NCBI RefSeq assembly: GCF_002007485.1
Contig: NZ_CP015820.1
Coordinates: 2,046,001-2,110,000, forward strand
DNA length: 64,000 bases
Source of the DNA: Ditibartonella apihabitans
GTDB lineage: Bacteria; Pseudomonadota; Alphaproteobacteria; Rhizobiales; Rhizobiaceae
Direction: 5' to 3'
A program made the translations under genes and the position numbers. The stretch's first letter is position 1; each line of letters opens with the position of its first letter. Below are positions 1-33,286 of the stretch, piece after piece. A model generated the notes under the pieces. That model searched no databases and was not told where the DNA came from. It was given only the letters and a program-made list of their open reading frames with translations.

Positions 1-297
1 AACCATCACCAGCGGCAATTTGGTTGCAACCTGCTCCATGCCGTCATTAATGTTTCCGTCCGACGACGGTTTATTTTGTTGTTTTTCTACCGTCTCACCG
101 AATTTCGAGGCAGCTTGCTTGGCACTCTGCTCGGCTTGCGATTTCTGATTGCCTGCCTGATCCTCCGGTCCGGCTATTTTCGAAGTTGCCACAATCACCT
201 GGAACAACATAGCCAGCAAAAGAAAAACCATCAACAGAACGGTGAGCATATCGGCATATGCAATCCAGATATTCTCGCCACCACGTTTTTGTGCCAT
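1..297 (-). CDS. MotB/SiiA-like proton-channel subunit (partial, runs off window)
   Basis: Ninety-nine codons are visible and the frame is open to the window edge. A short N-terminus (MAQKRGGENIW) leads into one membrane helix at about residues 10-34, containing AYADMLTVLLMVFLLL. This is the MotB/plug signature, and Asp16 sits where MotB has its proton-binding aspartate. A Gln/Lys/Ser-rich linker follows, and the periplasmic part lies outside the window. The start codon is 2 nt after the stop of the TolC-like gene, so the genes are co-transcribed with the MotA-like gene at 1775. Known families: MotB, ExbD, SiiA and ZorB share this architecture. The TolC gene between the MotA-like and MotB-like genes favours a secretion-coupled SiiA role (inference). 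Whether a peptidoglycan-binding OmpA domain follows cannot be seen. Confidence 0.8.
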   Translation of the reverse strand, partial: MAQKRGGENIWIAYADMLTVLLMVFLLLAMLFQVIVATSKIAGPEDQAGNQKSQAEQSAKQAASKFGETVEKQQNKPSSDGNINDGMEQVATKLPLVMV

Positions 298-299
298 TA

Positions 300-1769
300 T
301 CAACGCTCCACAAGCTGAAGAGCCACAAGTCCGTCATGAGGCTTGCCAGCAAGATAATAGATACTGAACACAGCGCGCATAAAGCCATAACGGGCGTCAA
401 TAGCATCTGTACGGGACGAAAAATATTCGGTCTCTGCCGTGATCAGATCGGAAAGTTTCCGATCACCAAGACGGAACTCTTCAAGGTAAAGACCGCGTGT
501 CTTATCAGCCTCTTTGGACGCCTCTTCACTGATTGTCCATTGCTGCGACGTAATATCAATATCACCAAGCAAAGCCCGCACCTCGTCATTCACTGTCGAG
601 CGCTCCTTGCCAAGCTGTGCCTCGTTGACATTCAATTGTGCATAGGCTTCACGAATTTTAGCCTTTTTCGAAAGGTCAAAAATATCGAATGTCAGTTTGA
701 GCTGAACGCCGCCATCAGTATCCGATACATTATAAAGATTGTCTACGTTTTCGAGCGTGCGCTTATAATCGATTGTCAAATCCAGCCTCGGTTTCAAGCT
801 CGCTTTGGCACCGACAACACTTTTCCGGCTTCCTTCCAGCGCCGCACCACGTGCAAGCACTGCCGGGTTCTGTTCTGCCGCATTGACAGCAACAGCATCA
901 AGATCCCTAACACGGGGAAGCGCCATACGCTTGGCGGGCAATGCCTCGACCTCTATCCCCACAAGAGCATTCAACTTCTGCTGGGCACGCGACAATTTGA
1001 GTTCGATATCCTTGCGGCGGTTAATCGCATTGCTTAAAGCGAGACGCCCGCGCACAGCATCCGATTGCGGCGAAATACCACCGGCAACACTTTCGCCGAT
1101 TGTTTTATTGAGAGATGTAATCTTGTCAACATAGGCCATCGCCGAGCGAAGCTGTTCTGTATAAGACTGGACAGCCATATAGGCATTTGCTGTATTATAC
1201 ATCACCGTCAGATCTTCGGCATGTTTTGCGTGACCGCTCGCACGCAAATTATAACTTGCGGCCTCTTTGTCAGCATCACGCCGCCCGAAATCATAGATAC
1301 TGTAGCTAACATCAATACCGGCGAAAGCTGTATCATCAAAATCTCTGTCGCGACTGGTGATACCACCATCGTAGCGCAAATTCGGAGCGGTCACTTCGGC
1401 ACCGACCGTCGGATAATATTTGGCTTTCGCCTGATCAAGCCGACTTTCAGCAATATCAAGCTGGCTTTTTGCAACTTTGATTGTCCACGAATAATCTGCA
1501 GCCTTCTTCAAAGCTTCATCCAGCGTCAGCCTTTGCTTTTCACGCTTGAAAAATTCTTTCGATTTTGCAGTTACCGGGTTGTTGGTGTTTGCAACCTTCG
1601 GGTCCTTACTGATTGCAGGCTGGTTATTTTTATCGATAGCCTGCGTTGTCATTGTATCGACGCCAGCACGAACTGTAGGTTTTTTATCGGATGCGCAGCC
1701 CGTTGAAACGACGCTACAGCTTACCAACAGGACAGACACCACACGCTTCAGATTGATTGAGCAATTCAT
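300..1769 (-). CDS. TolC-family outer-membrane lipoprotein (first copy, SiiC-like)
   Basis: This 489-residue protein has a signal peptide with lipobox VSTGC, giving a predicted lipidated Cys25. A duplicated outer-membrane-efflux-protein region follows: coiled-coil alpha-hairpins alternate with strand segments such as GIDVSYSIYDFGRRDAD and KLTFDIFDLSKKAKI. Such proteins trimerise into the outer-membrane and periplasmic tunnel of type I systems. It lies 5 nt after the MotA-like gene and 2 nt before the MotB-like gene, so it is the middle gene of a channel operon. A second TolC-like gene sits in the neighbouring exporter operon at 11693. Which one serves the giant adhesin is not clear from sequence. 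The role is inferred from family and context. Confidence 0.85.
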   Translation of the reverse strand: MNCSINLKRVVSVLLVSCSVVSTGCASDKKPTVRAGVDTMTTQAIDKNNQPAISKDPKVANTNNPVTAKSKEFFKREKQRLTLDEALKKAADYSWTIKVAKSQLDIAESRLDQAKAKYYPTVGAEVTAPNLRYDGGITSRDRDFDDTAFAGIDVSYSIYDFGRRDADKEAASYNLRASGHAKHAEDLTVMYNTANAYMAVQSYTEQLRSAMAYVDKITSLNKTIGESVAGGISPQSDAVRGRLALSNAINRRKDIELKLSRAQQKLNALVGIEVEALPAKRMALPRVRDLDAVAVNAAEQNPAVLARGAALEGSRKSVVGAKASLKPRLDLTIDYKRTLENVDNLYNVSDTDGGVQLKLTFDIFDLSKKAKIREAYAQLNVNEAQLGKERSTVNDEVRALLGDIDITSQQWTISEEASKEADKTRGLYLEEFRLGDRKLSDLITAETEYFSSRTDAIDARYGFMRAVFSIYYLAGKPHDGLVALQLVER

Positions 1770-1774
1770 TCGAA

Positions 1775-3142
1775 TTAGCCTTTCGTGGGTGGAACTTCAC
1801 TAACCTTTTGAGCTGCTCGCACAGCCGAGACAATGGAAACACGTGCTTCAGTTAAATCCCGCATCCCCTCCATCACAGCTTTTTGTTGTGCGCGCATAAC
1901 CTGCGTTGCGCTCTCCAAAGCTTCTTTTTGTTCGTCATTATGAGAAGTCAGCCGTCCGGTCGATTGATCAATCGAAGCAGCAAACCCTTGAATTTGTTTC
2001 AATTTTTCAAGAACTGCTTCGATTCCGGTCGTAATTTCGATCCGCATCTGGTTCAAACCGGCAATTGCCTGGGCAATAGTCTGGCTATTGTTTTCCTGAG
2101 CCTCGGTACCCCGTGCAATATAAGCACTATTGGTTTTAACCACGTCGCTCAGATGGGTGAGCATCTCGTAGCTATTCTGGATCACTTCGACAATTTGTCT
2201 TGTCGCTTCACCATTTGCCGTGACAGTCGACAACATTGCATCGACAGAACGCTTGTTGTTTTCCGATTGTTCGGACACAACCTCCAGCATTTTGTCCATG
2301 GTTTGCTGTTGGGCAGCCTGCCCTTCGACGAAGCTACTGGATATTTCAATAAATTTTCCGGTATCTTCATGAGAAAACTCGACATGACGGGAAAGAACTG
2401 CTGCCAATCTGTTGATCGCACGTGTTGTCGCGTCGATTGTGCCGGTCTCGCCAGCCATTTTGGAAGCTTCTTCACCGCTTGCAACAAACGACCATTTTTC
2501 GATATCGTAAACAATACCTTCTGTTGTACGTCCCATGAAATGGGCAATCAAACCGGTACAAATAGATGACCCCAGACCGAACATGGATGAAGAAAACGCG
2601 GTTGCCATACCACCGAGAGGTGCTGCCAGCGAATTGACCAGCGACTTCGCCTGGATTTCATCAGCCGACGACAAAACGTTGATAGACCCGCGAATACCTT
2701 CCATAGTAAATGTCAGACCGAAAAACGTACCGAGCAAGCCCATGGAAATAACAGCACCGGCTGCATAGAACAGAAAATCCACCCGCCACTCCAACGCCGA
2801 AGAAACCAGTGAGATTGCGGAATTTCTTTCATCTTCATTAAAGCTGATAAGATCGCGCAATCGACCGCGCAACAACCGCATATAGCCTTTTAAAACCGGC
2901 TCTTCACTATCGCGCGGAAAATTCCCTTTGAATTCTACCCACTGTTTCACCCCTGATTTGAGGTAGAACATTGTGTAAATTGCATAAACAAGGACGATCG
3001 CGTCGAATACAGCAATGATGCTATTAAAAATAATGTTATGCGCCACAAAATCGCCGTGAAACACCACGGTGTAAACAAGCGCAAAGAGCGACAGAAGCGC
3101 AAGCACCAATGAAAAATACAGTACAGAACGAGTAGATCTCAT
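1775..3142 (-). CDS. MotA/TolQ/ExbB-type proton-channel protein with long coiled-coil tail (SiiB-like)
   Basis: The protein has 455 residues from the ATG at 3142, preceded by AAGGGG at good spacing. An in-frame start 30 nt upstream lacks a ribosome site. Helices lie at about 7-29, 36-61, 121-147 and 173-204. The last two carry the family core GLLGTFFGLTFTMEGI and LGGMATAFSSSMFGLGSS. Residues 215-455 form a cytoplasmic tail rich in Gln, Glu, Ser and Ala with a coiled-coil look. Known: MotA-family pentamers around a MotB dimer couple proton flow to work at a distance, and Salmonella SiiB is of similar length. A long tail also occurs in Zorya ZorA, so a defence role is the main alternative. Co-transcription with a TolC gene favours secretion. 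Confidence 0.85.
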   Translation of the reverse strand: MRSTRSVLYFSLVLALLSLFALVYTVVFHGDFVAHNIIFNSIIAVFDAIVLVYAIYTMFYLKSGVKQWVEFKGNFPRDSEEPVLKGYMRLLRGRLRDLISFNEDERNSAISLVSSALEWRVDFLFYAAGAVISMGLLGTFFGLTFTMEGIRGSINVLSSADEIQAKSLVNSLAAPLGGMATAFSSSMFGLGSSICTGLIAHFMGRTTEGIVYDIEKWSFVASGEEASKMAGETGTIDATTRAINRLAAVLSRHVEFSHEDTGKFIEISSSFVEGQAAQQQTMDKMLEVVSEQSENNKRSVDAMLSTVTANGEATRQIVEVIQNSYEMLTHLSDVVKTNSAYIARGTEAQENNSQTIAQAIAGLNQMRIEITTGIEAVLEKLKQIQGFAASIDQSTGRLTSHNDEQKEALESATQVMRAQQKAVMEGMRDLTEARVSIVSAVRAAQKVSEVPPTKG

Positions 3143-4086
3143 AAATAACCCCTTTTGATGCAGCTCCTGCACCGAAAAAACATTCTACCCCCCACCGCTA
3201 CAAACGGCTTTTCCGCCAATTGACCATATTGACGAAATTTTTCCCATCTGCGCGCCCAAACTCCACAATTCAAGAATCATAGAACGTTTTAATGAGTTAA
3301 CAAATTTTTGCAAGATATGGTGAATTTTTAGTTAACAACAAAATTAATACGAAATATCAATTTGTTAAAAAGTTTTTCGCTTTATTTACAGTCATTCTAA
3401 ACTAAAATTGTGATTCACTTTCTGTTACAATCCCCATATCCCTGAACATGTAGGTGAAAATTTTTCTTTAAACATTTAATCGGCTATCTATCTTTATTTG
3501 GCAACCCGATCTGTTCACATTTTCGTATGTTAACGAGTTATATCGCACACAATAAATAATTATTTTAGTTGTAAAATATATTATATAAATTTGAATTATT
3601 AATTATGAACAGTATTATTTATATTTATTTTATAATAACTTTCGTTTTTTAACTTTTTTATTTTTATATTATAAATTATGTTTCTATAATATCAATTTTT
3701 CTACTAATTCGTGAAATGACAACTCGTATTTACATTGATTATTTATTTTACAGTCGCCTAAAGAGCTTTAATATGAAAATTTCATAGATGAATATAACGA
3801 TTGCCGACTTTGCTTCTGGCTGTTCATGAAGCGAGCTTAAGGGAGCATACGTTACAAAATGCTATGTTTCTTCCTGTCCTAAAAAGACGATTATGTCATT
3901 TTGCTATAACACGGGGTTATATGTTTCGCCCCTGAAGTCATCTTTTATCCTGATTAATCCCCTCTGTTCTTAGAGACAAAAGGCGAAAATGAATAAAAAG
4001 CGCCGCACCAGTTCGCTTGCGTGAATCAATGCGGTATAACACTTTCAAACCAGACAATTGAAACTTTATAGGCTACTCCGGATTTA
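3143..4086. other. Long AT-rich intergenic region upstream of the channel operon
   Basis: No credible gene is seen here. About 3240-3760 is extremely AT-rich, with runs of A, T and TA steps. It must hold the promoter of the minus-strand operon beginning at 3142. By analogy with AT-rich silencer targets, a MucR/Ros- or H-NS-type regulator could act here, but no defined site was recognised. Confidence 0.6.
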
Positions 4087-4495
4087 CTACCTGCGTTTCA
4101 GCGCCAGTTCCAAGTCCTTTTTAGTTCCTGTTCAAAGTCCCGCTTGAGCTGCTGGGACAAATCACGTTCGATTTGCTGTGGCAAATCCCGTTTCAGTTGT
4201 TCTGCCAAATCTCTTTTTAACTGCTGTGTCAGGTCCCGTTTGAGTTGCTGTAACAAATCCCGTTCGAGCGGCTGCACCAAATCCCGCTTGAGTTCCTCTG
4301 CCAAATCCTTTTTGAGCTGTTGGCTCACGTCCCATTTAAGGTCATGCGCCAAGTCGCGTCTGAGCTGCTCTGCCAAACCCCGCTTCAGTTGCTCGGACAA
4401 ATCCCGTTCGATCTGCTGCGCCAGATCTTTCTTGAGCTCCTGTGCCAACTCCTTTTCAGCACTTCCACCAAATCCCTTTTGAGCTGCTGGTCCAA
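4087..4495 (-). repeat. Seventeen-unit 24-bp tandem array coding octapeptides, broken by two 1-nt deletions
   Basis: The minus strand encodes 17 consecutive octads of the pattern LAEQLKRD, with Leu or Ile at positions 1 and 5 and alternating acidic and basic residues. The longest open frame (4098-4448, TTG start) covers 13 to 14 units. The unit at about 4448-4470 and the unit at about 4111-4133 are each 23 nt instead of 24. Restoring one G in each short G run rejoins all 17 octads into one frame that ends ALKRR and a TAG at 4087. Array length (406 nt plus stop) equals 17 x 24 minus 2. No start with a ribosome site is visible upstream. A separate small frame at 4456-4725 overlaps the array start in another phase and may be remnant 5' sequence. 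Function unknown; probably a decayed or phase-switching gene for a charged helical protein. Confidence 0.75.
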
Positions 4496-4765
4496 AGTCC
4501 CGTCTCCCCTGAATTTTGACAATTCGAATTAATTCGAATGGCCGGATTATATGTCAACTCAAGGGCTATATAAAGAACAATAAGGCGAAACGGCTTTGTC
4601 TTAAGCAAATAAATCTTTTTCTCGTCCCTAAAGACAAGAAAACCTGATTTCGACAATTGTACCGATGGGGAAAAACGATTTACGATCGGGACCCTTGAAT
4701 TGTTACTAGAGAACAAAATGGACAAGACGATCTAGTGAAAACGAAAACGGAAAAATTTTACTGAA

Positions 4766-7744
4766 TTACAAATACAAATTTAAATAAAACACAAATTGTG
4801 GAAAAAGCCGGTATCTAATGGGTATTTTCTCGTTGAATTTATCAAAGAGTTCCTGGTTTTGTGGACCTTTGTTCAGAACAAACAAGGCTGTTTTACCATC
4901 ATTAAAAGTAGCCGGAAAACCGAACACCGCGGCATGTCCGAGAAAATTTTCGTTATAGTCTTTATCATCGGGAACGAGCCGTAAAGACGCTATGAAATTA
5001 TTCTCAAAAAGATTGGCTACGGTTGTTGACGCCTGATTATTGAGGATATTGGTTTTGTCGCCAAAATAAATGCCGCGAACGCCGACAACCGAACTGCTAT
5101 CCACGCCTTCGAATTGGGTAAAAGACAAATCGATGAGATGCGTAGCGTCGAGGTTTTCACGATAATTTTTACGAATGCTCATACGCACGCCCATCTGGCC
5201 ATCCTGTGTTGTGAAATCTGCTACGAGAGCGGTTTCGTCATAAGGATTTTCCGAACTATGAGGCGGCCGGAGCGTCCATGCCACTGACCCCTCCAACTTG
5301 CGCTCTATGCCTTTTTTGTCTTTCAGCAACATACGAGCATCAGCGCGTTTCCTTGTCCGGATTTGCGCATCTTGCGGATCGACACCCTTCACGCCTTTTG
5401 TTTTCTGCGGTTCCGACATTGCTTGTTGATAAGGGTTTTGAACACCGTTCGCATTGACAGCCGCCGAGGGCAAATCAACGTCTTTTCTTGTTTCCTTGAG
5501 CGGGCTGAATGACATGTCAGAAACTGAAGCTTTTGAAAATGTTTTTCCGGCTTCAGAATTTGCAGCGCCATGATTTGCATCGGTCAAACTTAGCGCTTGC
5601 GCCGGCAGGTCGTCCGAAGCTGAAGGACTGATGGCCGAAGTAGCGGACAAATCGAAAGTACGGCTATCACCACCAATATTTATGGATGAGAAAACCGGTA
5701 CATTGCCCCGCCAGAAATAATAGACCCCGCTCGATAATACACACGCAGCCAGAATACCGGCAGCCAAACTCCCTTTGCCCTTGATATTTTCGCGTATCGC
5801 ATGCGATAACGCTTTGTAAGTCAGTTGTCTCCCGAACCTGTTTTGGCGGCGGTCATCAAAAGACAAGTCCTTCGGAAAAAGATCCTGTTCGAATTGCTTG
5901 GACTGCCTTTGATCTGCCTCTTTCGATTGTGACCGATTTTCGTCCGGAGCCTTGCGGCTCGTGTTTTCGCCCGATGTCGCTATATTATTCGTCTGTTGCT
6001 CGAAGAAATCGGCATCCCGCTTGTCATCATCGGCATCACGCTTTTCATATTTGACGATGAAATCGGGAATTGGCGGTTCATCTTCCAGCACATCCCTGTT
6101 ATTTCCAGAAAAACTCTGTCTTGTCTCCTCGTCAGGAATTTTGCGAGCAAGTTCTATCTCATTGAAAGCAAAAAGATTTCCGTTATCGAAAACAGTTTGT
6201 GGATATGTTGTCCGGTTGCGATTGGTGTCAGCTCCAACACCATTGGAGAAAGCATTTTTTGCGTCATTGTTCAAAGGCGCGATAAATATTTTCTGTTCCG
6301 GAGATTTGCCGTTCATGCCGGTAGTGGAGGCAGCAGCGTTTGATAGTCCTCTCCCTGACGGCGCCGATATTATCGGCCGCGGCAGAGGCGAGGCAGTAAC
6401 CACGGTTTCTCTTTTGAACAAACGTCGTTCCAATTCCTTGATTTGCTCATCGACCGATATTTTCCGGTCTGCCGCAGGATCCGGCTCATTTGACACGCTG
6501 AATTGTTCCACCGCGTCCGTTTCATCAAGAAAATAAATGTCGGGGGTGGCAGCATAACCGCCAACATTGCCGTATCCGGCTTGTTGAGGTTGTTGACCGG
6601 ATGGTGCGCGCTTGCCATTATTCTTCTTAACGCCGGATGTCGCTTGATAGGACTGTGACTGCATAGCATTTTCCCACGGCATTTGAGGCTGTCTTTTTGA
6701 AAACGCCCCATCCGGTCGAGACGATCTTGCCCCGTTCATCGGTGTCTCAGCATTACCCATTGACTGTCTATGCCCGTCGCGACCTCTTTGGATACCGGCT
6801 TCACGAAACCGGTTTATATTATTGACCGAAGGTCTGTTACCACGCTCGCCATTCAATGGAAAAGATTGCCCCCCTTGCATTGCGGCCTGACGGTTTGAAG
6901 AAGGAGTGCGGCCGGTATTAAATGAAGACTGTCGGAAACCATTCGTGATCGAACCGGAAAGACTATAATAAGGGCTATTTTCCTTTTGGAAATTCTGCTG
7001 CCATGGCATATATTGCCGAGTTTGCCCTTGCGAAATTTGCTGTGCTCCGGCATCCGGAAATAAAGTGTCATTGCGGGCATTGACCGATTGTAAATTCGCC
7101 TGCCGGCCAAGAGCCGGGATTACTGTTCTTTCTCTACCTTCGATCAATGCTTCGATTTCATTATCATCTTCCGCATTTAAATTCCGTTTATGGGATAAAT
7201 CACGATTGTTGATGACCGCCGGTTGGTCGCTGTCGCTTTGACGTGAAGCTCTGCGGGCGGCAAAATCGGTCAGATGCGGATTATCGGTTAAGCCTTGTGC
7301 GCCATTTGCCGCTGCTTTACGGCCTTTGAAATTGAAAAGGCCGATAACATCGGTCATTGACGGTTCATCGTTTTCAAATGACCAATATCTGAACATATTT
7401 CGGTTCGAAGCCAATTGCCGCAAGCGGCCATGATCAACCGCCACGTCGCGTTTTGTACCGAAATAATCCGGTAAATATGCCTGATAGGCAAAATGGCAGG
7501 GAACCCGATTTTCCTCCAACACGAAATATTCCGGCCTTAAAAGGTAAGAAGCCTCCACCTCGCATATCGCAGCCTCGAGCCTCAACATATATGAGCGCTG
7601 GACAATATCGGGCGCGTTCATCTCATTCAGCTTCGATTTGATAGCCAAACGCGTTTTTTCATAAATAAGCTGCCGACCGTCCGAATTCGGACGCGATTTT
7701 TGTCGTTCAATCAAATGCCTGAGCAGCTTTGGAATGTTGATCAT
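4766..7744 (-). CDS. Conserved Rhizobiales membrane protein of unknown function
   Basis: This 992-residue protein has three parts. Residues 1-125 form a conserved helical N-terminal domain beginning LLRHLIERQKSRPNSDGRQ. About residues 130-650 are low-complexity, rich in Gln, Asn, Arg and Ser. One membrane helix lies near 656-677, and the C-terminal domain at about 805-975 contains ATHLIDLSF and FNDGKTALFVLNKGPQN. I recall the N- and C-terminal domains from Rhizobiales hypothetical proteins whose C-terminus has the same layout and ends in an EKG.PG-type motif. Here about 15 residues (RLFPQFVFYLNLYL) follow that motif, so a frameshift at the extreme 3' end is possible. It begins 246 nt after the exporter operon on the same strand. 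The link to secretion is positional only. Confidence 0.7.
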   Translation of the reverse strand: MINIPKLLRHLIERQKSRPNSDGRQLIYEKTRLAIKSKLNEMNAPDIVQRSYMLRLEAAICEVEASYLLRPEYFVLEENRVPCHFAYQAYLPDYFGTKRDVAVDHGRLRQLASNRNMFRYWSFENDEPSMTDVIGLFNFKGRKAAANGAQGLTDNPHLTDFAARRASRQSDSDQPAVINNRDLSHKRNLNAEDDNEIEALIEGRERTVIPALGRQANLQSVNARNDTLFPDAGAQQISQGQTRQYMPWQQNFQKENSPYYSLSGSITNGFRQSSFNTGRTPSSNRQAAMQGGQSFPLNGERGNRPSVNNINRFREAGIQRGRDGHRQSMGNAETPMNGARSSRPDGAFSKRQPQMPWENAMQSQSYQATSGVKKNNGKRAPSGQQPQQAGYGNVGGYAATPDIYFLDETDAVEQFSVSNEPDPAADRKISVDEQIKELERRLFKRETVVTASPLPRPIISAPSGRGLSNAAASTTGMNGKSPEQKIFIAPLNNDAKNAFSNGVGADTNRNRTTYPQTVFDNGNLFAFNEIELARKIPDEETRQSFSGNNRDVLEDEPPIPDFIVKYEKRDADDDKRDADFFEQQTNNIATSGENTSRKAPDENRSQSKEADQRQSKQFEQDLFPKDLSFDDRRQNRFGRQLTYKALSHAIRENIKGKGSLAAGILAACVLSSGVYYFWRGNVPVFSSINIGGDSRTFDLSATSAISPSASDDLPAQALSLTDANHGAANSEAGKTFSKASVSDMSFSPLKETRKDVDLPSAAVNANGVQNPYQQAMSEPQKTKGVKGVDPQDAQIRTRKRADARMLLKDKKGIERKLEGSVAWTLRPPHSSENPYDETALVADFTTQDGQMGVRMSIRKNYRENLDATHLIDLSFTQFEGVDSSSVVGVRGIYFGDKTNILNNQASTTVANLFENNFIASLRLVPDDKDYNENFLGHAAVFGFPATFNDGKTALFVLNKGPQNQELFDKFNEKIPIRYRLFPQFVFYLNLYL

Positions 7745-7990
7745 TGTAGCGCGCTATTTCCATCTTTATAACAATAGAAGCCGTTTAATTTGCACTAGAA
7801 CTGTTTTTTCATTACCCCATAATTTGATAAGTTAAACTAAAACTATCATCTACTCTATATTTTTCACATAGAAAATTATGAAAACTTACCATATAACCCT
7901 CTTATTATGTTGTTATTACAGTGTAACAACTCGTTTTTTATAAAAATATTTAGTCGGCTTATTATTAATATCAAATATTTAATTCACGCG

Positions 7991-9160: not shown

Positions 9161-9162
9161 TG

Positions 9163-11682: not shown

Positions 11683-11692
11683 GGCAAAACTC

Positions 11693-27000: not shown

Positions 27001-30000
27001 TCGAAACGAGAATTGACGAACTATCTATGATAAAGCCGAATGCCGGACTCTTGTCACTGATATTGCCAGCCTTATCGGTGTAAGTCGTGGTAATCGAATG
27101 GTTGCCCTGACCGAGGTCGGTTGGCGTATAGCTCCAGTTTCCCTCGGCATCGGACATAACAGTCTGAACAAGTTTTGTCTTGCCATCAACTGTATCATAA
27201 ATATTGACAACAACACTGCCCTCGGCAGCTTTTCCGTGAATAGTCGGTGCCTTGTCATCAATTGTCGTGTTTGGCTCGACATCTCCCTTTTTATCACCGA
27301 CATGGTCGTCCAACTTCGGCAGATCCGGTGTTGTCGGTTTTAATGTATCGACATTGATCGGCCAGAACCCTGTCTTGTCGGATTCCTGTCCGGCGCTGTC
27401 ACTTGCAGAAGCGCGAATTTGCCAGCTCTCGCCATTTGGCAAAATACCGGCCAATGAAGGATCAATCTCGACCGCCCAATGGCCGTCACCGCCGACCTTA
27501 ACACCCTTGGCGACAAGTTTATCGCCAATATAGATATTGATAAACGAACCGGCATCACCGGTTCCTTTGATGAGCGGTGTGGCATCATTGGTAAACTGGT
27601 TTTTATCAATGAACTTGCCATCCGGATGGGATGCATCAATCTCTTTTCCATCATTGTTGTAAATACCGGTAATGGCTGGCATTCCCGGGGCTGCCCCCGC
27701 AATGTCGAAATCCCAGGTCTTGGCCTCACCTTCATTGCCCGCATCATCGGACGGACGGGCTTCGATTTTATGCGAGCCCGAACTTAAATGCGGCGTATAG
27801 GACCATGTGCCATCAGCTGCAACATCGACAATACCGGCAAGCGTACCATCAATATAGATATGGACTTTCGTGACATCGCTTCCTGCCGGAAGTTTGCCCT
27901 TGATCTCAGGCGTTTTGTCGTCGGTTACTTTATGACCGGCATCGTTTATGTTCCATGCCGTGGTGCCATTGGCGCCATCAAATTCGCCAGTCTGTGGTCC
28001 CTCGTCATCCCACAAACCGATGTCACTGCCAAGTGTCCCTGTCGGTCCCTTGGTATCAACCTCGAATTTATAGGCCGGTGTTGGCTGACCTTCATTACCG
28101 GCTTTATCAACCGGACGCGCTATCCATTCATGCACGCCATCGGCAAGACCGTGTTCTGTTGACGGCGTGAAACTCCAGTCGCCATTTTTGTCAACTTTTG
28201 CAGAACCGATCAGCTTGCCATTGTCATAAATATTGACCGATTGGGTATCGCTTGAAATCGCGCGTCCGCTCATTGTCGGCGTATCATCATTGGTAAGCTT
28301 GATCTTTCCACCCTTACCGTCATCCTTCTCGAGCCAGCTCGGGAAGTCACCGACATTTGTTTCCTTGTTATCGACAAGCTTGATGGTGCTGTCGTCGAGA
28401 ACCGGCGCTGTACGATCAATGAAAAGATCATAGCCGTCTGTCGGATTGCTTTCATTGCCGACACTATCTGTCTCTGTCACAACAAATGTATATTTTGTCG
28501 GACTATGATTTGGATCATCGGTCAAAGCGACCGTTGGCGTAACCGACCATGTTCCATCCTCACGAACCACTGTCTGGCCGATAAGCGTACGCTCGCCCTT
28601 ATCATTAACGGTATAAAGCTTGATAATATCTCCCGCGACACCTTTACCATTAAAGGTCGGCGTGGTGTCGTCGGTAACATAATTATCATTCAATGGACGG
28701 TTGCCATCCGGATAGATTGCCGGATCGTTGCCGACATTGTCGATAACCTCGACAAGCTGAGGTGTTGCCGGTGCTGTTGTATCGATATGCAGGCTGAAAT
28801 GATGTTCGACTTTATTGCCCGCACTATTTGTCAAAGAGGCAATATATTCATGGATTTTGTCTTCACCGGCATTCTGTTGGGCCGGCAACTGGAATTCCCA
28901 TGTCCCGTCGGCCTTGACCGTCGTTTCATAGGTTGAACCGGTTGTCTTATCAAGAATCGTCACCTTTTGTCCGGGTGTGCCACGCCCGACAAGCTTCGGC
29001 GTGGCATCATTGGTGGCACCGCCATTGACAATCGTTTTTGCGTCTTTCTGGTAGTCATCAACAGCGTGATCGATTTTGACTTCCGGTGGTGTCAAATCAA
29101 GATTGAACCCTAACGGGTCACTTTTATCACTCACATTGCCGGCCGCATCGGTCAAAGTGGTTGTTATACTGTGTGCACCGGCTTTGAGAGGCGTGGTGGG
29201 CGTCCATGACCAAGTGCCATCCTCATGGACGGTCGTCTCTCCTATAACCTTGCCATTGTCATAAATGGTGACAATTGAATTCTTTTCACCTTTTCCCGAA
29301 AGGATCGGCATATCCTCGTCATAGGTCTTGCCTTCTTCAATGCTTCCATGCTGATCGCCGGAATTATCTTCCGCTTTGACAATATCGGGCTTTGCCGGTG
29401 CCGTCGTATCACGATTGATCCAGCTATCACCCGATGGTGCCCCGACCGCTCCCGCATCGTTCCTGGCATCGGCTACAAAACTATAACGACCATCGGTAAT
29501 GGCTTTGCGTGTCTCTGCTGAAACTGTGCTCAAATCCACTGTCTGCGACCAGCTACCGGAGCCATTGCTTGTCGTGGTTTCAAACGTATGAATGACCTTG
29601 CCGCTATCATCTTTCAGATAAACAGTAATGATCGAATTGGCCGGCGCACTTCCCTGAAGATGGAATATGTTTTCCTTCGTCGGATTATCCCATGTATAGG
29701 GTGCATTATTGTCACCTGTTGTCGCCGAATCGATCGACGTCTGGCCAACGGTTGCCATATCAAGAACAAACGGAAATGATGTACGTGCTCCCTCGACACC
29801 TGCCTTGTTTTCATAAGCAACTTCGAACTTATGATTATTACCGGCGTTGAGTGTCGGCGTATATTCCCAACTTCCGTCTTCGCTTACCGGAATTTTGGTC
29901 AGTAATTTGCCATTGTCATATATATTGATTGTCGAAATCCGGCCGGAATTCAATAAATCTGTCGGCAAATGCCCTTTAAGGGTGGGCGTTGTATCGTCGG

Positions 30001-33000
30001 TGATAACAACTTTCTCGCCATGCTGGCCTTGCCGCGTCGCCCACTCACCATCACGATAGGAGCCCACAATCGAACCGGCATCGTCAATGAGATCAACTTC
30101 ATCCTTGCTGTTCCCCATCGCCGGAACCGGCTCGGTGTCGAAACCTAACAGGAACTTGTCCGAATGGTTGCTTTCGTTACCCGCCGGATCGGTTGCCGTC
30201 GTGGTAAATTCATGCATTCCTTTTGTATTGCTAATCGGGCTTGTCGGCGAAACACTCCATGTGCCATCGTCTTTTACAACCGATTGGCCAACAAGCTTGT
30301 CACCATCGTATAATTTTATAACGTCTCCGACAGTACCTTTGCCGGAAAATGTCGGCGTTGTATCATCTGTCGTATCACCACTATGAAGTACTTTATCTCC
30401 ATTCGTATTGTTGGTGGCATTGTCTTTATTGCCAACATTGTCGATGACTTTATCAATGGCCGGTGCATCCGGTGCTTTTGTATCAATCGTCAAATGGAAA
30501 TCGGCAGTCTGGGTATTGCCTGCCGCATTGGTGATTTTTGCGTGATAGCTATGGGTGACTTCCTGATTATCGCCTGCCTGGTTTGGAAGCTCGAACTGCC
30601 AATTTCCTGCGCCATCGACTTTGGTCCGGCCAATTTCCTTGCCATTCTCGTCGGTGATCACGACTGTCTGATTAGGCGTGCCACGCCCGTAAAGGGTCGG
30701 CGTGCGATCATCCGTGACACCATTATCCGCGACATCCTTACGGATTGACCCTTCATCATCATGAGCACCATCGACAAAAATATTTACACCCGATTTGTCG
30801 ACAGTCACTTTGACAGCGCCACTCTTTTCACTTTCATTGCCGGCAGCATCCGTCAATGTCGTCGTCAAACTGTGGTCGCCACCTTTAAGCGGCGGATTGG
30901 GCGTGAAACTCCATGTTCCATCATCACCGACAACTGTCTCGCCAATCGGCGTTTTCCCGTCATTGTCATAAATCTTGACGACTTCGCCCTTTTTCCCCTT
31001 GCCCGATAAGGTTGGCGTATCATCATCTGTTGTCGAACCCGCAGTAATTTCGCCTTGCTTTTCGCCAACATTATCCATCGCCTTCGGCGCATCCGGCGCA
31101 TCCGGCGCTGTCGTATCGCGTTCCAGCCAATGCGAGCCGGACGCATCGGTTGGCGCACCTTTACTATCGACTGCACTTGCTTTGAAACTATATTCCCCAT
31201 CCTTCAAAGGCGGATTAAGATGCGACAGATCTCCCGTATTGACCGACCATGACCCGTCTTTCGAAACGTCAGCCGTCCATTCCAATGGCTCGCCTTTATA
31301 ATTTTTGACAGGATTACCATCCTTGTCATAAAGCCGGAGCGTTACTTTCCCTGAAGACGGTCCGCCACCTGTCACAAAGAAGCTGTTGGAATTGGTCGGA
31401 TAACCGGATTCATGATAGTGCCCCTGATCGTCCTGTACCTGCTGGATAGAAGGCGGTCCTGCACGGTTCAGATCAACCCAGAAATCATAATCATCAGGAT
31501 TTGACTGTTCGCCAACTGTGCCGAATTTATTGACAATAGCCGCACTTAAGCGATGGTCACCCTGCAACCATTCCTGCTTATATTCCCAACTCCCGTCACC
31601 TTTGACCTTGGCTTCGCCAATCTTCTTGCCATTGTCATAAATATTGACGTGATCGACATTCGAAACGTCGTAGCCTGAAGGAATTTTGCCTTTGAACACC
31701 GCATGGTTATCGTCGGTAACCTTCTTATGGTCGCTGTCACGCTCTGCCCAATCTTTGTAAGATCCGGTAACAGCCCCGACATTATCAATGACATCAAGAT
31801 TTTCCTCGCCAATTGCAGGAGGAAGCGTCCGGTCAAAAGCAAAGTTGCCGTTGATGTGATCGCTTTCATTGCCAACTTTGTTCTTGGCGTAAATCTCGTA
31901 ATTATAATTGCCTTTGGTAAGCTTATAAGCTTCAGGCAAACGGAAGGCGAATGTGCCATCATCACGAATAACTTTTTCGCCCGCCCCTCTTTGGGACCCC
32001 GCTTCATTCACCGTATTGCGATCAATAACAAATTCATGCCCATTGAGTTTGATGATGATATGGGTAACATCTTTACCGATGCGCCCACAAAATACCGGTG
32101 TCTCGTCATCGGTCGTGCCACCCGTTAACGGCAATGCTCCGGTCACTTCCGGATGATTGTCTTCAACACGGAAATCTTCAATGCCATACGGCCTGCTCGA
32201 GTCAATATTAACATTAAAATCGGTTCCCGCACTTTCATTGCCGGCAGCATCCGTCAATGTCGTGGTGAGTTTATGGTGACCTTCACTTAAAGCTTTGTTC
32301 GTTTCAACCGACCAGTTGCCATCTTTATCGACAGTGCCCTGTCCAACAAGCGTTTTGTTGCCTTTGTCATCGGTATCATAAATCTTGACCGTGCTTCCAG
32401 GCTCTCCCTTACCTGTCAAAGTCGGCGTCTTGTCATTGGTATAATCACCATCCTTCAATGTTCCGTCGGAACCAACCGGATTAGGCGAGACATCGTCAAT
32501 ACCACGAGCAACACTCGGCGCATCGGGTGCATGCGTATCCACATTGAACTCGTAATTTGCCTCTGTACTGACATGACCGTTAGCGTCAATCTGGGTTACT
32601 TTGGCGATGTATTTTCCATCGTTAAGCTTCGGTAATTCGAAACTCCACGTACCGTCCGAATTGACCTTTGTGGTCATATCCGGATAACCGTCAATGTGAA
32701 TCCTGATTGTATTGCCAGGCGTGCCCTTACCCGACAATAGCGGCGTGGTATCATTGAGATAACCGCCATTTCTGACAGCCAGAAGATTCTTCGGATCATT
32801 GTTGTTTATCACCGTATAGACGGGTGCAGGCGGTGGTGTACTGTTACCATCGTCATGATGGTTACCATCATTGGCATGTTCTGCCGCAATACCACTACCC
32901 GCGCCAACAGCCCCCAGAATTCCGAGAAGAACAGCGTTCGAATAACCGCTCTTGTCGGTTATTTCTTCATAGAGCACATTGCTATCAACAACACCGTCAC

Positions 33001-33286
33001 CATTCGTGCTCAAAGCCTGACTGAAGTCGGTCAGCCAGGTTGCCCCGTCATCGATGAAAATGAGATTGCAGATCGGATGGCCCGCATTGAAGAAATTCTT
33101 GATGCGAACAGTTTTCCCGTCTGCAAAATTGATGATCAGGTCATTGCCGGCACGGCTATAATTGGAAATACTTTCCTTATCTGCCGTAAGAACGAAATTC
33201 AGCGGCTTGCCACCACTGTCAACCGCACCACTCTTTTCTGTCAATTTAACAACGGGATGTTGTTTTATAATATCCGACTTCGTCAT
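15065..33286 (-). CDS. Giant BapA/SiiE-like type I secreted adhesin with about 45 Ig-like domains
   Basis: The protein has 6073 residues; AGGTAGCGAG precedes the ATG. Residues 1-90 match the Bap/BapA/LapF prefix domain (SNYSRAGNDLIINFADGKTV). A hydrophobic Gly/Ala-rich stretch lies at about 117-135. From about 160 to 5220 come roughly 45 Ig-like domains of about 110 residues, most with TDDTTPTLSGKG, IYDNG, DGTWSFTP and TDAAGNES motifs. About 5220-5700 is an FG-GAP/VCBS-type region with at least six DxDxDG-like loops (DYNHDGYID, DMNGDGYLD, DWDHDGKMD). About 5790-6073 holds an RTX-like segment (GSKGDNFFDGRAGDD) and a VCA0849-type type I secretion signal ending in DLETLLANHQIIIG. It should be exported without a signal peptide and stay at the surface to bind host or neighbours. 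It heads the operon with the flavoprotein, TolC, ABC and HlyD genes. Confidence 0.95.
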   Translation of the reverse strand: MTKSDIIKQHPVVKLTEKSGAVDSGGKPLNFVLTADKESISNYSRAGNDLIINFADGKTVRIKNFFNAGHPICNLIFIDDGATWLTDFSQALSTNGDGVVDSNVLYEEITDKSGYSNAVLLGILGAVGAGSGIAAEHANDGNHHDDGNSTPPPAPVYTVINNNDPKNLLAVRNGGYLNDTTPLLSGKGTPGNTIRIHIDGYPDMTTKVNSDGTWSFELPKLNDGKYIAKVTQIDANGHVSTEANYEFNVDTHAPDAPSVARGIDDVSPNPVGSDGTLKDGDYTNDKTPTLTGKGEPGSTVKIYDTDDKGNKTLVGQGTVDKDGNWSVETNKALSEGHHKLTTTLTDAAGNESAGTDFNVNIDSSRPYGIEDFRVEDNHPEVTGALPLTGGTTDDETPVFCGRIGKDVTHIIIKLNGHEFVIDRNTVNEAGSQRGAGEKVIRDDGTFAFRLPEAYKLTKGNYNYEIYAKNKVGNESDHINGNFAFDRTLPPAIGEENLDVIDNVGAVTGSYKDWAERDSDHKKVTDDNHAVFKGKIPSGYDVSNVDHVNIYDNGKKIGEAKVKGDGSWEYKQEWLQGDHRLSAAIVNKFGTVGEQSNPDDYDFWVDLNRAGPPSIQQVQDDQGHYHESGYPTNSNSFFVTGGGPSSGKVTLRLYDKDGNPVKNYKGEPLEWTADVSKDGSWSVNTGDLSHLNPPLKDGEYSFKASAVDSKGAPTDASGSHWLERDTTAPDAPDAPKAMDNVGEKQGEITAGSTTDDDTPTLSGKGKKGEVVKIYDNDGKTPIGETVVGDDGTWSFTPNPPLKGGDHSLTTTLTDAAGNESEKSGAVKVTVDKSGVNIFVDGAHDDEGSIRKDVADNGVTDDRTPTLYGRGTPNQTVVITDENGKEIGRTKVDGAGNWQFELPNQAGDNQEVTHSYHAKITNAAGNTQTADFHLTIDTKAPDAPAIDKVIDNVGNKDNATNNTNGDKVLHSGDTTDDTTPTFSGKGTVGDVIKLYDGDKLVGQSVVKDDGTWSVSPTSPISNTKGMHEFTTTATDPAGNESNHSDKFLLGFDTEPVPAMGNSKDEVDLIDDAGSIVGSYRDGEWATRQGQHGEKVVITDDTTPTLKGHLPTDLLNSGRISTINIYDNGKLLTKIPVSEDGSWEYTPTLNAGNNHKFEVAYENKAGVEGARTSFPFVLDMATVGQTSIDSATTGDNNAPYTWDNPTKENIFHLQGSAPANSIITVYLKDDSGKVIHTFETTTSNGSGSWSQTVDLSTVSAETRKAITDGRYSFVADARNDAGAVGAPSGDSWINRDTTAPAKPDIVKAEDNSGDQHGSIEEGKTYDEDMPILSGKGEKNSIVTIYDNGKVIGETTVHEDGTWSWTPTTPLKAGAHSITTTLTDAAGNVSDKSDPLGFNLDLTPPEVKIDHAVDDYQKDAKTIVNGGATNDATPKLVGRGTPGQKVTILDKTTGSTYETTVKADGTWEFQLPAQQNAGEDKIHEYIASLTNSAGNKVEHHFSLHIDTTAPATPQLVEVIDNVGNDPAIYPDGNRPLNDNYVTDDTTPTFNGKGVAGDIIKLYTVNDKGERTLIGQTVVREDGTWSVTPTVALTDDPNHSPTKYTFVVTETDSVGNESNPTDGYDLFIDRTAPVLDDSTIKLVDNKETNVGDFPSWLEKDDGKGGKIKLTNDDTPTMSGRAISSDTQSVNIYDNGKLIGSAKVDKNGDWSFTPSTEHGLADGVHEWIARPVDKAGNEGQPTPAYKFEVDTKGPTGTLGSDIGLWDDEGPQTGEFDGANGTTAWNINDAGHKVTDDKTPEIKGKLPAGSDVTKVHIYIDGTLAGIVDVAADGTWSYTPHLSSGSHKIEARPSDDAGNEGEAKTWDFDIAGAAPGMPAITGIYNNDGKEIDASHPDGKFIDKNQFTNDATPLIKGTGDAGSFINIYIGDKLVAKGVKVGGDGHWAVEIDPSLAGILPNGESWQIRASASDSAGQESDKTGFWPINVDTLKPTTPDLPKLDDHVGDKKGDVEPNTTIDDKAPTIHGKAAEGSVVVNIYDTVDGKTKLVQTVMSDAEGNWSYTPTDLGQGNHSITTTYTDKAGNISDKSPAFGFIIDSSSILVSINYAADNAGHIVKDLANGETTDDTTPTLFGSTSPNTVVTIKEGDKVIGTVTSDGHGNWSFELPKQTNGHHVYTAVVTAQNGNNAHSDFALDIDNTPPEAPDITRVQDDVPLKTDDLVSGGKTNDTKPTFYGEGNPGDTITIYDEIDGKLVKIGTATIGNDHQWVCTVDELLPGAHHFKLQTTNKLGVDSEKYTEYDLTVKTDAPTETTRLVSINEDRGLSDSDFKTGDDSLVFKFGVNEKLPAGYKVQVNIDGKWYDATYDATDGYWYYDHSNTHLSEGVHKVYGRVVDDAGNVKEGPAQDVVIDKTAPIGGDYQIVIDSYTDNVNEEGGSKSRSNGEATNDNTPTLNGHTSGMKAGDYVTVQVKIGNDWVTIGTATVDESGNWKFDVKGIPGGTAKDHLDDGYHEFRGVITDEAGNLGQASSGFGLDVATTPPPAINESGLDLFDDQLPTTGTILKGTTTDDSRPTLKGAANSVDPTKVGSINLYDNGTLIGTGKVNSDGSWSVEPTVPLRQGNHSFVAKPVDYAGNEQPQGTTAWDFNFVGHAPATPSIINVLDDNGDTIQKNAVTNDSTPLIKGTGTTGSTVHIYVDGVDVAQVAVKEDGTWETTLPALANPATDPNGTRHVITAKALDKEGKTWSHETGEYPVVVDRQAPDAPDAPTAKDDQGNTITGTTADSTPTLSGKVNGHQPGDKVNIYQDGVKVGEAKVNDQGEWSWTPKDPLGKGNHQFQTSLSDAAGNESGKGTATNITVDTSTVNVSIDYLVDDQAPLESHITNNSKTDDRTPLIVGKATPNSDVVLTYTDANNQVHELAKVKADGEGNWSYQVKDSEKFGEGHYIIHAETTSPSNVKSTADFNFDVDITNNQKPSIDRVTDDVGAIQNDVGSGESTDDTTPTIIGSGAKPYQKVNIYDQEENSNGEKGESKLIGSAIADGEGKWSFTPPSPLGGDTTHHLSATTVDEVGNESQHSPDYNVIVDIEPPTPIANDTVSVTDDVKNDANDFTGQLKKDQYTNDNQPEYSGKAPSDAKTVNIYDNGKLIGSTKVKEDGTWSFTPDETHKLSEGQHTLTARPVDSAGNEGTDCQGSEFIVDTIAPGAVPTISGVSNDTGPKDDDFITQDKNPTIFVSVNQPLADNEHVEISLDDGLTWVTASYNKDTGKYYYAVGHELTDQVYHVKARVVDAAGNVGHDTARDMTVDTTPPLDGYTVTIDKFHDDVENNVGDYPSGTATNDKTPLLKGTVKGAHEGDVVHLYYRDSQGNLHSVADNIHLTSNGDGSYSWQYQFSELAEGNYQYVAVVKDAAGNEGASSNDFLLTVDVTGPLWGNANSIKLVDDQQPDIGDIPHSGGVTDDNYPEVQAGAGTVTGAAGGIVELYDGNTKIGEGLIEADGSFKIVPNKAITPGQHRFHLVAVDPAGNRTPLQDVEWNFNFAGHAPGTPSITNIIDDYNNPEGKSVYLQKGQSTDDATPTLHGMGTKGTRIHIFKNGQEINTDDNPVIVGDDGTWTFKLPAAYALKDTSTDGLGTHYNFAVQAVDQTGVPSSKTGEYPIVYDNHAPNQPDVPSLQSDQEPGIGTIENNGTTPDQTPTFSGTVQNPQVGDKVTIYNKVDGQYVKIGETTVDPSSGKWSWTPENPLAKGDYEFATSVTDAAGNESAKSQSTTVTVDPTNVDVSILYAVDDQKKSTEDYTGKISDGGLTNDATPDLHGRATPNSAVTIYTDVGGVRTEYGKVYADSNGDWAFVWPQDKQLPDGSYTIVAEATLPNNSTKSDSFKLVVDTQNDHVPEIASASDDVGANQSDDLASGAASDDTTPTLKGHGAEPNGIVNIYDTVNGETHLVDSVKADSNGNWEYSVQSPLPEGEHHFQATSVDAAGNESDKSPEFKYTIDLTAPDALQSVNLTDDVPETTGTISNNGMTNDDRPTYSGSATADIDKVFIYDHGVKIGEAKVVNNNGQYTWSYTPDTALANGDHSFQAKPVDAVGNIGIPTGAWNFKVLTGTIATKPTIVGISQDTGFDTNDYVTSDTQPTIYITTSEKLNAANGEKVQINIGGQWYDTEFDEASGRYFFRPVTALPASANGTNYIIKTRIIDNAGRTSDIDEKTMTLDNQGPDGTITLDKFVDNVGVEQDFSSHTEKNYTDDRTPELHGTVTGAKSGDYVVIYLADKDGNILKDENGKPIKLGSIHPDGTNWKFTPNLDEAHYPDNKDYYFVAVLEDKAGNQGPKSPPLGLSLTTEGPDWSGSKDFDVYDDQAPDIGIIGENNKPHVTDDNRPTVKGKAGSLDPAEVDSVLLYDSDPSDPNAKPIGKKTINSDGSWEVEPDSPLMPGHHRFWVVPVNHAGVVGKTKSDVFEFDLIGHAPGTPSITQIGHDDDPNVVFPDNQIQQNGITRDNTPFIKGTGTKGSYVKIYDQFNGEDRLLETVKVDNDGHWETSLQGLDDGTHKIWVQATDAGGNKSAATAPYPFVVDTTPPASPGRPTITSDVAPNKSVISDDSTDHGTTNDTTPTFSGKIDKAQPGDVVTIYDGDKAIGETKVNPDGSWSFTPTTPLDKGEHHFTTTVKDAAGNESDRGFATDITIADNGNTVTVDYAVDNVDPIKGPIANGGHTDDTTPELHGTAPAGSTVTVYSDATKQTKVGDPCIVGSDGKWSIGLTEQAAGEHNYYVEATGTDGTVLAGQDFKLNIDNGEPDRPTITEVTDDVGLIQGAVANGGSRVDNGTTDDTNPTIKGTAPKNSLVIIYDNGKEIGRVYADGEGKWSYTTGAMLTEDDHKFTAVSQNAEGKTSGVSNEYVVTVDITAPKQITGETVQDNVLPNSANGEDGPAIIKVNQNDHTNDDSPIFSGTAPSDAKKVRIYDNNKLIAEVDVDSDHTWFWEAGNRNSDAKLANGSHSLTARPVDAAGNEGPASEAHAFIVDKTVPGAKATLDSITDDTGFESSDFTTQDNTLLFSFKVDGTLKDTDKVQALINNQWYDLTYNSANGKWELDWRNKPALADGSYVIKTRVISSTGEYDHDATDRSAKTVVIDSDGSAQHSEFTGFTGKGGKVFQNGEYVDVTNPVLQGKISGNLADLEDGAKIGIYRDHVLLGYVDKSQIKSDGTFSFKLPDGSLTDHHSYIFTTAIVSNSGYVGEMHNVEVRVDTTGAANVPDYGKSNRNKPTDTDGDLSYTQAVALNNNGEWQVISNSNVWVFRNNSNGKADGYYLDYSPGVAAKTVDQFWWAGEKALFGSYTMADYNHDGYIDVWTTKACYAYYTTAAYVGTGDNQWNYVDVKYGDMFNGASIENHLGGIATFDMNGDGYLDVIQGDSGIDSGSVFLNKGATSSSLNGSQFIGMGRQFGGNQSPLTSNFMTDHHVSAIDLDNNGTIDFAGNGLINDTTGVSGYGNNWYQLMTLMNSGVSAPNGVYGANWSVNQHFDDSLPSFGNGYDDFIGQDTYKNTISMTWADYNGDGYMDLFLAKNHHGWHSNRESQIFYNKGDGTGQLRNAVGLGDDLDGRWSVAIDWDHDGKMDILEVPGYGQSAAGTKLWHNGGVGLDGAVKWDNWDIFGAQGGRLSSANGDVDPRSITGSGYNYIYGIGLVDYDWDGALDVTMQRDNAHSSLILSNKNKVGYGTSLHLRITDKDGANVFYNNTVQLFDSSGNLVAVQVINAQGGMGVSDNTGLVHFYGLKENETYSVVVLRNTEGQSNDVGGIAHTHTKDANGYGKDNTIENVNSSWTGLKAVEADHAYILNANKDGETVTTGAGNNDPATQGYRPGLVGTGYNDVFTAEAGSQSYSGGGGWRNDAGEKYWQASGGEDIVDFGKSTVGVTVDLGNSGYQSTGFNNAKFNDIEGIYGSKFNDTFTGSKGDNFFDGRAGDDTYHLEAGGHDLLLYRLIQQNDATGGNGHDTAYGFTVGTYIDADKSKIDANADRIDVKDLLQGYRADAGGAAHYDDKGKAQIDWGDNIKDYLSTRVENGNTILSIDRDGKGNAFQSTDLLTLNNVQTDLETLLANHQIIIG

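Follow-up and report, generated by a model that had tools for sequence, protein, structure and literature searches.

Type I secretion is described as an ATP-driven process. The locus analysed here, a 64,000-nucleotide stretch of the Ditibartonella apihabitans genome (contig NZ_CP015820.1, positions 2,046,001 to 2,110,000; hereafter the window), raises the question of which protein is served by a putative MotAB-type proton channel that is encoded beside a type I secretion operon for a giant adhesin. The genome is a single contig of 2.6 Mb, and strains of this Bartonella group come from bees. A first-pass annotation of the window had described two same-strand operons, one for the adhesin with TolC, ABC and HlyD proteins and one for MotA-like, TolC and MotB-like proteins, and had proposed that the channel energises or gates secretion of the adhesin. 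All of the genes that it named are present, on the minus strand (Table 1) and in an order that is conserved among Bartonella genomes; it overlooked the halogenase-like gene and the gene for the 992-residue protein of the adhesin operon.

Table 1. Features of the two operons and their surroundings. Positions are those of the window, or of locus L002 where marked.
Feature	Position	Strand	Remarks
BapA-type Ig-repeat adhesin, 6,073 aa	33286-15065	-	Presumed operon 1 substrate
Tryptophan-halogenase-like flavoprotein	15068-13173	-	PF04820, E 1.2e-74; between adhesin and TolC1
TolC1	13303-11693	-	Operon 1
ABC1, LssB-type exporter	11706-9163	-	Operon 1; LSGGQ, DEPT and THR motifs intact
HlyD1 adaptor	9160-7991	-	Operon 1
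992-aa protein	7744-4766	-	Final operon 1 gene; one hydrophobic stretch by eye
Tandem array of 24-bp-based units	4110-4503	.	Between operon 1 and operon 2
MotA/SiiB-like protein, 465 aa	3172-1775	-	Opens operon 2; long C-terminal tail; Pfam MotA_ExbB
TolC2, outer-membrane channel, 489 aa	1769-300	-	Operon 2
MotB/SiiA-like protein, 219 aa	303-1, runs on to contig position 2045644	-	Operon 2; 101 aa inside window; Pfam MotB_plug
HlyD2	L002 13720-12380, outside window	-	Operon 2
2,343-aa repeat protein	L002 12294-5263, outside window	-	Operon 2 substrate, presumed cargo
ABC2	L002 5207-2934, outside window	-	Operon 2
1,279-aa protein	45102-48941		SIR2_2 domain (E 8.7e-17); a possible role in defence

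The second operon extends beyond the window. The MotA, TolC and MotB genes seen in the first pass are real but do not make up the full set, which continues outside the window and reads MotA-TolC2-MotB-HlyD2-substrate-ABC2. The MotA, TolC2 and MotB genes either overlap or are separated by 5 bases, and the gaps between HlyD2 and the substrate and between the substrate and ABC2 are shorter than 100 bases. By its gene content, operon 2 is predicted to encode a self-contained type I secretion system (T1SS), MotAB-assisted like that of SPI-4 and supplied with a presumed cargo of its own. As MotAB, HlyD2, the 2,343-residue substrate and ABC2 are encoded in one operon, the MotAB pair would belong with this substrate rather than with the operon 1 adhesin of 6,073 residues.

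The same gene order occurs outside Bartonella. When plasmids were searched with ABC2, pKeioCLMIC23 of Enterobacter asburiae came to light, where an operon annotated as MotA/TolQ/ExbB, TolC, hypothetical protein, HlyD, calcium-binding protein and ABC shares with operon 2 its gene order and an ABC protein devoid of LSGGQ and the switch His (the Walker B Glu is gone too). The ABC, HlyD and TolC proteins are 27% (E 2.8e-58), 30% (E 1.7e-61) and 23% (E 3e-29) identical, respectively, to those of operon 2. The plasmid system differs in its MotA, which is 20-27% identical (27% over 212 residues, with E 0.010 and 2e-4 in two comparisons), in its MotB, which is about 25% identical (16 residues only by BLAST, E 0.021), and in its substrate of 1,905 residues. 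The operon is annotated, and the literature searched yielded no description of it. This plasmid also has an FRI-5 carbapenemase gene (L121 4370-5260).

A search with a MotA alignment matched 16 of 362 Enterobacteriaceae genomes, seven of which have the MotA-TolC-MotB-HlyD-substrate-ABC order, hereafter class I, in a sample that covers only part of enterobacterial diversity. An order like that of SPI-4 (class II, MotB-MotA-TolC-HlyD-giant protein) was found in five of the 16 (G1034, G888, G967, G993 and G759); the contigs of G993 and G759 end before the ABC gene, the gene preceding MotA in G759 has no MotB match, and G1034 contains L175 as a further SPI-4-like locus. Class III, a third arrangement, is carried by G941 (twice), G1067, G888 and G759. 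The systems of G858 and G883 look partial. Class III loci (L169, L170, L172, L176 and L178) comprise MotA, a ~410-aa gene where TolC would stand, HlyD, a small protein and ABC, and the ~410-aa gene has a TolC match in one of the five. Among 297 genomes of the order, a MotB profile matched the window genome alone; among 398 genomes of the phylum it gave matches in 26 others, all short and mostly to the membrane segment. Nine of these genomes were viewed, and four have the Zorya protein ZorA (L130 and L132-L134, PADLOC), two of them also ZorB. In another of the nine (L115, G500:C30) a MotA/MotB-like pair, its MotA 29% identical to that of the window over 225 residues, has no T1SS match in 36 kb. 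An ABC profile run against the 398 phylum genomes, with only two candidates scored in each, provides a weak negative. Nothing was found when plasmids were searched with the Bartonella MotA and MotB proteins or E. coli genomes with the Enterobacter ABC gene, viral contigs yielded no relative, and all that a Providencia rettgeri plasmid has is a TolC fragment and a MotA whose annotation is split in two.

The class I systems have an unusual ABC protein in common. In an alignment anchored on ABC1, LSGGQ is absent from 14 of 14 class I proteins (six from Bartonella, that of the E. asburiae plasmid and those of seven enterobacterial genomes), as is the H-loop histidine, which is replaced by Asp in 12, Asn in one and Arg in one. 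The six Bartonella rows leave out G044 and G045, in which ABC2 is 98-99% identical to the window's, and G061 and G062. The C-loop reads FYPNPAHRQ in Bartonella ABC2 and LSLQKKQ, LTALQKQ, LTALQRQ, LTSLQKQ, LRADRVQ, LSAAQKS or LSEDKLQ in the other class I proteins. Walker A, the Q-loop and the Walker B Glu are retained in 6/6 Bartonella rows; the Walker B Glu is also absent from five of the eight others, with LDNPS in four genomes, and the E. asburiae protein has altered Walker motifs (GNSDWGKTS and LFDSPT). In control T1SS exporters (ABC1 and five encoded on plasmids) LSGGQ is present in 6/6 and the His in 5/6, the Arcobacter one having Gln, while SiiF reads LSSGQ, DEPT and THR in 3/3 rows. Class II proteins have LSSGQ or FSSGQ together with the His (4/4), and class III proteins LSNGE or FSAGE with the His (5/5); for these two classes only the C-loop, Walker B and H-loop were used, as Gln is missing from their Q-loop column, perhaps as a result of the alignment. 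Classes II and III, which also contain MotAB, thus keep near-normal C-loops and the His, indicating that MotAB and decay of the ABC are not tightly linked. When the best 30 ABC loci of nine class I genomes were considered, SGG and the His were absent from all six class I ABCs, and the other full-length ABCs among the same loci had SGG[Q/E] and the His in 23 of 23; the remaining locus was truncated. Class I forms a single branch in the trees of both ABC (SH-aLRT 100) and HlyD (95); these trees carry long-branch warnings that make the order among the classes unsure, and only class I as a group is used here.

Loss of LSGGQ and of the switch His usually cripples ABC turnover. Judged by these motifs, the ABC2 branch has lost residues predicted to close and fire the ATP sites, and a motif-degraded ABC protein that is common to all class I systems examined is the new observation of this study. 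As Walker A, the Q-loop and the Walker B Glu are kept in Bartonella ABC2, ATP binding and slow hydrolysis may be possible. The dN/dS of ABC2 relative to the window (0.090-0.123 in five comparisons) is close to that of ABC1 (0.075-0.211 in three, a fourth being saturated), which indicates that ABC2 is maintained by purifying selection and is not decaying.

The substrate of operon 2 is rich in Asp and Asn, contains weak RTX repeats that fall below the Pfam cut-off, and has no BIg domains. Over the C-terminal 500 residues, the substrates of G003, G013, G043, G057 and G061 share only 52-56% identity with that of the window, and ABC2 of these five genomes 79-93%; the corresponding values in G056 are 77% and 83%, and in G044 and G045 the substrate end is 100% identical. 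Such fast divergence fits a protein predicted to be surface-exposed. A domain of ~75 residues, nine of them invariant, is common to 14 class I substrate N-termini (two from Bartonella and 12 from E. asburiae and the seven enterobacterial genomes), and no member has a Pfam match better than E 0.016. Four of the seven enterobacterial operons (L160, L161, L163 and L164) encode two tandem substrates of ~1,360 residues, each with this domain. In profile comparison the domain scores 84.1% over 47 columns against the N-terminus of SiiE, a weak match to an alignment of two SiiE rows only, and 27.6% against the prefix of the operon 1 adhesin. In the accessible text of one study, the SiiE N-terminus governs retention and release together with SiiAB (PMC6272769).

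Our leading reading, to which we give close to an even chance, is that operon 2 encodes an SPI-4-like system with a crippled ABC protein, which relies on the proton gradient, via MotAB, for its energy or its gating. By analogy with SiiAB, MotA and MotB would form an inner-membrane proton channel. ABC2, HlyD2 and TolC2 would be the conduit through which the cargo is threaded, ABC2 binding ATP mainly as a switch, and proton flow through MotAB would supply the work to hold, and perhaps to move, the surface protein; the machine would hold the substrate by its conserved N-terminal domain. The assignment to MotAB of control or power over holding, and perhaps movement, would follow from the lack in ABC2 of what ATP cycling needs. 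The sequences show the gene content and order, their conservation, the loss of motifs, purifying selection and the relatedness to SiiAB; we infer that protons are conducted, that ATP cycling is lost and that retention or export is driven by the proton motive force (PMF). SiiAB is presented as a PMF-dependent controller of SiiE retention in the accessible parts of two papers (PMC6272769, PMC12607715), CCCP lowers the surface retention of SiiE in the first of these (PMC6272769), and a passage elsewhere counts SiiAB among PMF motors (PMC12204202). One of these sources states that the way in which SiiAB exploits the PMF ‘remains unclear’ (PMC12607715). The occurrence in some enterobacteria of the same pairing of MotAB with an ABC that has lost these motifs suggests, at the level of sequence, that proton flow may do part of ATP's work. 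It is possible, if doubtful, that class I constitutes a proton-powered branch of T1SS in which a MotAB motor replaced ATP hydrolysis and the ABC protein survives as a nucleotide-sensing conduit. If true, this would be a protein exporter run by the kind of motor that serves flagella, Tol-Pal and TonB. The combination of degraded ATP sites with conserved proton-channel residues makes it testable whether proton flow holds or drives a T1SS substrate.

It could be argued that the role of MotAB is confined to the control of retention and release. ABC2 would then bind ATP once, opening the conduit for a single molecule that stays plugged in it, and Ca2+-dependent folding outside the cell would pull the export. 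The Walker A and Walker B motifs of Bartonella ABC2 are in keeping with such one-shot gating, as are the weak RTX repeats and the Asp/Asn-rich composition of the substrate. In SPI-4, SiiE is still secreted after deletion of siiA and siiB, with reduced invasion, in the portion available of a recent report (PMC12607715); thus, a MotAB pair need not drive export. In addition, Ca2+ has been proposed, in the accessible text of another paper, to pull SiiE out (PMC6272769). In some relatives, however, Walker A or Walker B is altered, which would weaken the binding switch too, and we regard one-shot gating as a serious but unlikely alternative to a system energised or gated by the proton gradient.

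A further explanation, in our view improbable, is that ABC2 forms mixed dimers, as the inactive partner of an exporter with a competent ATPase such as ABC1. Known exporters include heterodimers in which one site is degenerate (PMC8277102, in the accessible part of the review). ABC1 has intact motifs and operon 1 adjoins operon 2 in seven of the eight genomes with both that were inspected (G062, with short contigs, was left out). An exporter 39-80% identical to ABC1 is present in seven of the nine class I genomes searched, an eighth (G827) has one at 34%, and class I genomes only were counted. A partner ABC of at least 34% identity is thus usually at hand (8/9). Against this, loss of both the C-loop and the H-loop on one subunit should, by reasoning, harm both sites, and G057, although only 86% complete, has no ABC1-like gene, its best other ABC being 26% identical.

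The adjacency of the operons also speaks for the original proposal that MotAB energises secretion of the 6,073-residue adhesin, which we nonetheless consider very unlikely. The adhesin contains a BapA_N prefix (E 4.8e-9), many Big_13 repeats, FG-GAP and one weak RTX match, and ABC1 scores 736 bits against TIGR03375 (cut-off 693). From the adhesin through HlyD1, neighbouring genes are no more than 2 bases apart or overlap, and 246 bases separate HlyD1 from the gene for the 992-residue protein. With its BapA prefix, Ig repeats, LssB-type ABC, TolC and HlyD, operon 1 resembles, and on sequence fits, a BapA/LapA-type T1SS; it differs from such systems in the addition of the halogenase-like gene and the 992-residue protein, and it has no MotAB. 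The 992-residue protein has no match in Pfam or NCBIfam. Its gene is poorly conserved, with only short stretches matched in G058 and G063; in most relatives the N-terminal ~110 and C-terminal ~360 residues are conserved and the middle is variable. Among 71 Bartonella genomes, 10 have a MotA match, 13 the halogenase and nine both. The full operon 2 order is found in 9/9 genomes inspected and the order adhesin-halogenase-TolC1-ABC1-HlyD1 in 12/12, and these arrangements are thus not due to chance. Co-occurrence of the two operons in related genomes, on which the first-pass annotation had partly staked its proposal, holds as adjacency in most cases but is not general: four of the 13 halogenase-bearing genomes (G058, G059, G060 and G063) carry operon 1 with no MotA match, and in G056 the two operons lie on separate contigs. 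Conversely, G057, an 86% complete genome, has MotA and operon 2 and no halogenase match. The systems are therefore separable and the coupling of MotAB to the adhesin fails, since the MotAB operon also has its own HlyD, substrate and ABC. The ORF that covers the 24-bp-unit array between the operons is matched only in G000 (the window genome), G043, G044 and G045 among the genomes compared.

The suggestion that such a system may be little described outside enterics stands for operon 2, within the literature searched, and does not for operon 1, as the pair of giant protein and halogenase was reported in 2016 in the ant symbiont Tokpelaia and in B. tamiae (PMC5156944, accessible text). The halogenase-like protein might modify the adhesin. 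Among solved chains, tryptophan halogenases are its nearest matches (best E 1.7e-56), and all nine proteins aligned have the Lys of a conserved FKxG stretch. At the position of what we take to be the usual tryptophan-halogenase box, WxWxIP, these proteins read YICRIP, YLWQVP, YLWQVT or WMSQIP. The initial ~38 codons of the window gene are in a different frame from those of G043, G044, G045 and G062, and in G045 the halogenase, the 992-residue protein and the operon 2 substrate are each split between frames. A genome scan with the halogenase returned two loci, in Bartonella sp. M0177 (90%) and an uncultured Bartonella MAG (88%). A general partnership of such halogenases with T1SS was rejected: halogenase relatives at E 1e-20 were present in 18 other genomes of 297 from the Rhizobiales, and 15 neighbourhoods from these had no adhesin or TolC1 match, ABC hits being common and a distant HlyD hit occurring in one.

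The MotA/MotB pair itself is SiiB/SiiA-like, as the first-pass annotation had supposed, this being the best profile match among the families compared. In hhalign, MotA matches the SiiB-like profile at 98.9% (E 2.1e-17, 413 columns), and MotB matches SiiA at 95.2% (E 2.8e-8) over 73 periplasmic columns; the E-values are for single comparisons, and three unrelated control profiles scored 0.1-0.6%. The SiiB-like set comes from enterobacterial genomes, one of them tied to Salmonella SiiA. The SiiA yardstick, a class II MotB-like protein, matches solved chain 6qvp (E 4.3e-61), and the giant protein of the same genome matches 2yn3 (E 5e-53), chains that we take to be SiiA and SiiE, respectively. Matches to Pfam fall below the cut-offs (MotA_ExbB, E 6.5e-4 and 19.9 bits against 22.9; MotB_plug, E 1.2e-4 and 22.1 bits against 24). 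The MotB-like protein has a single membrane helix that carries the proton-site Asp (AYADM), which is kept in 10/10 rows, and a Pro and a Thr of MotA, presumably channel residues after MotA/ExbB, are kept in 11/11; an AlphaFold model of MotA (pLDDT 44.7) was too low in confidence to use. Flagellar MotAB was rejected, the profile match being near absent (6.8% for MotA and 11.9% for MotB against the E. coli proteins, single sequences that lower the scores). MotA also matches the ZorA profile at 93.8% (E 1.7e-7, 111 columns) and MotB the ZorB profile at 61.6% over 23 membrane columns; true Zorya proteins in the search genomes, confirmed by PADLOC, gave E 1e-82 to 0. That the pair belongs to anti-phage Zorya, to which weak ZorA and ZorB profile hits (E 7e-10 and 8e-7) point, is almost certainly wrong, as the scores lie far under the NCBIfam cut-offs (35.1 bits against 500 for ZorA, 23.6 against 400 for ZorB), SiiB/SiiA match better, and downstream, where the first-pass annotation would have looked for zorC and zorD, there are HlyD, the substrate and ABC.

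The literature searched, which lay largely outside subscription journals, contained nothing on the class I gene order or on any T1SS whose ABC is degraded. The accessible text of a 2021 T1SS review mentions SiiF once and neither SiiA nor SiiB (PMC8277102), and the terms ‘type I secretion’, ‘SiiA’, ‘SiiB’ and ‘secretion system’ are absent from the main text of a 2025 survey of MotAB homologues (PMC12505986). Systems of this kind are filed under names like ‘ATP-binding cassette domain-containing protein’ or ‘hypothetical protein’; gene order, loss of ABC motifs and the substrate N-terminal domain provide a search signature for them. With ZorAB and flagellar MotAB the operon 2 pair has in common MotA/MotB-type membrane segments and the proton-site Asp; it differs from ZorAB in the shortness of the profile match and the lack of zorCD neighbours, and from flagellar MotAB in that a match is near absent. 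The closest likeness is to SiiABCDEF of Salmonella SPI-4, in which MotB-like, MotA-like, TolC, HlyD, large surface and ABC proteins are likewise encoded in one operon with the order HlyD-substrate-ABC, and whose substrate N-terminus is weakly matched. In contrast with the siiABCDEF order, however, operon 2 reads MotA-TolC-MotB-HlyD-substrate-ABC; its substrate is a protein of 2,343 residues with weak RTX repeats instead of a BIg-domain giant; and, where SiiF keeps LSSGQ and the His, the class I ABC has neither LSGGQ nor the switch His and occupies a separate branch in the ABC and HlyD trees.
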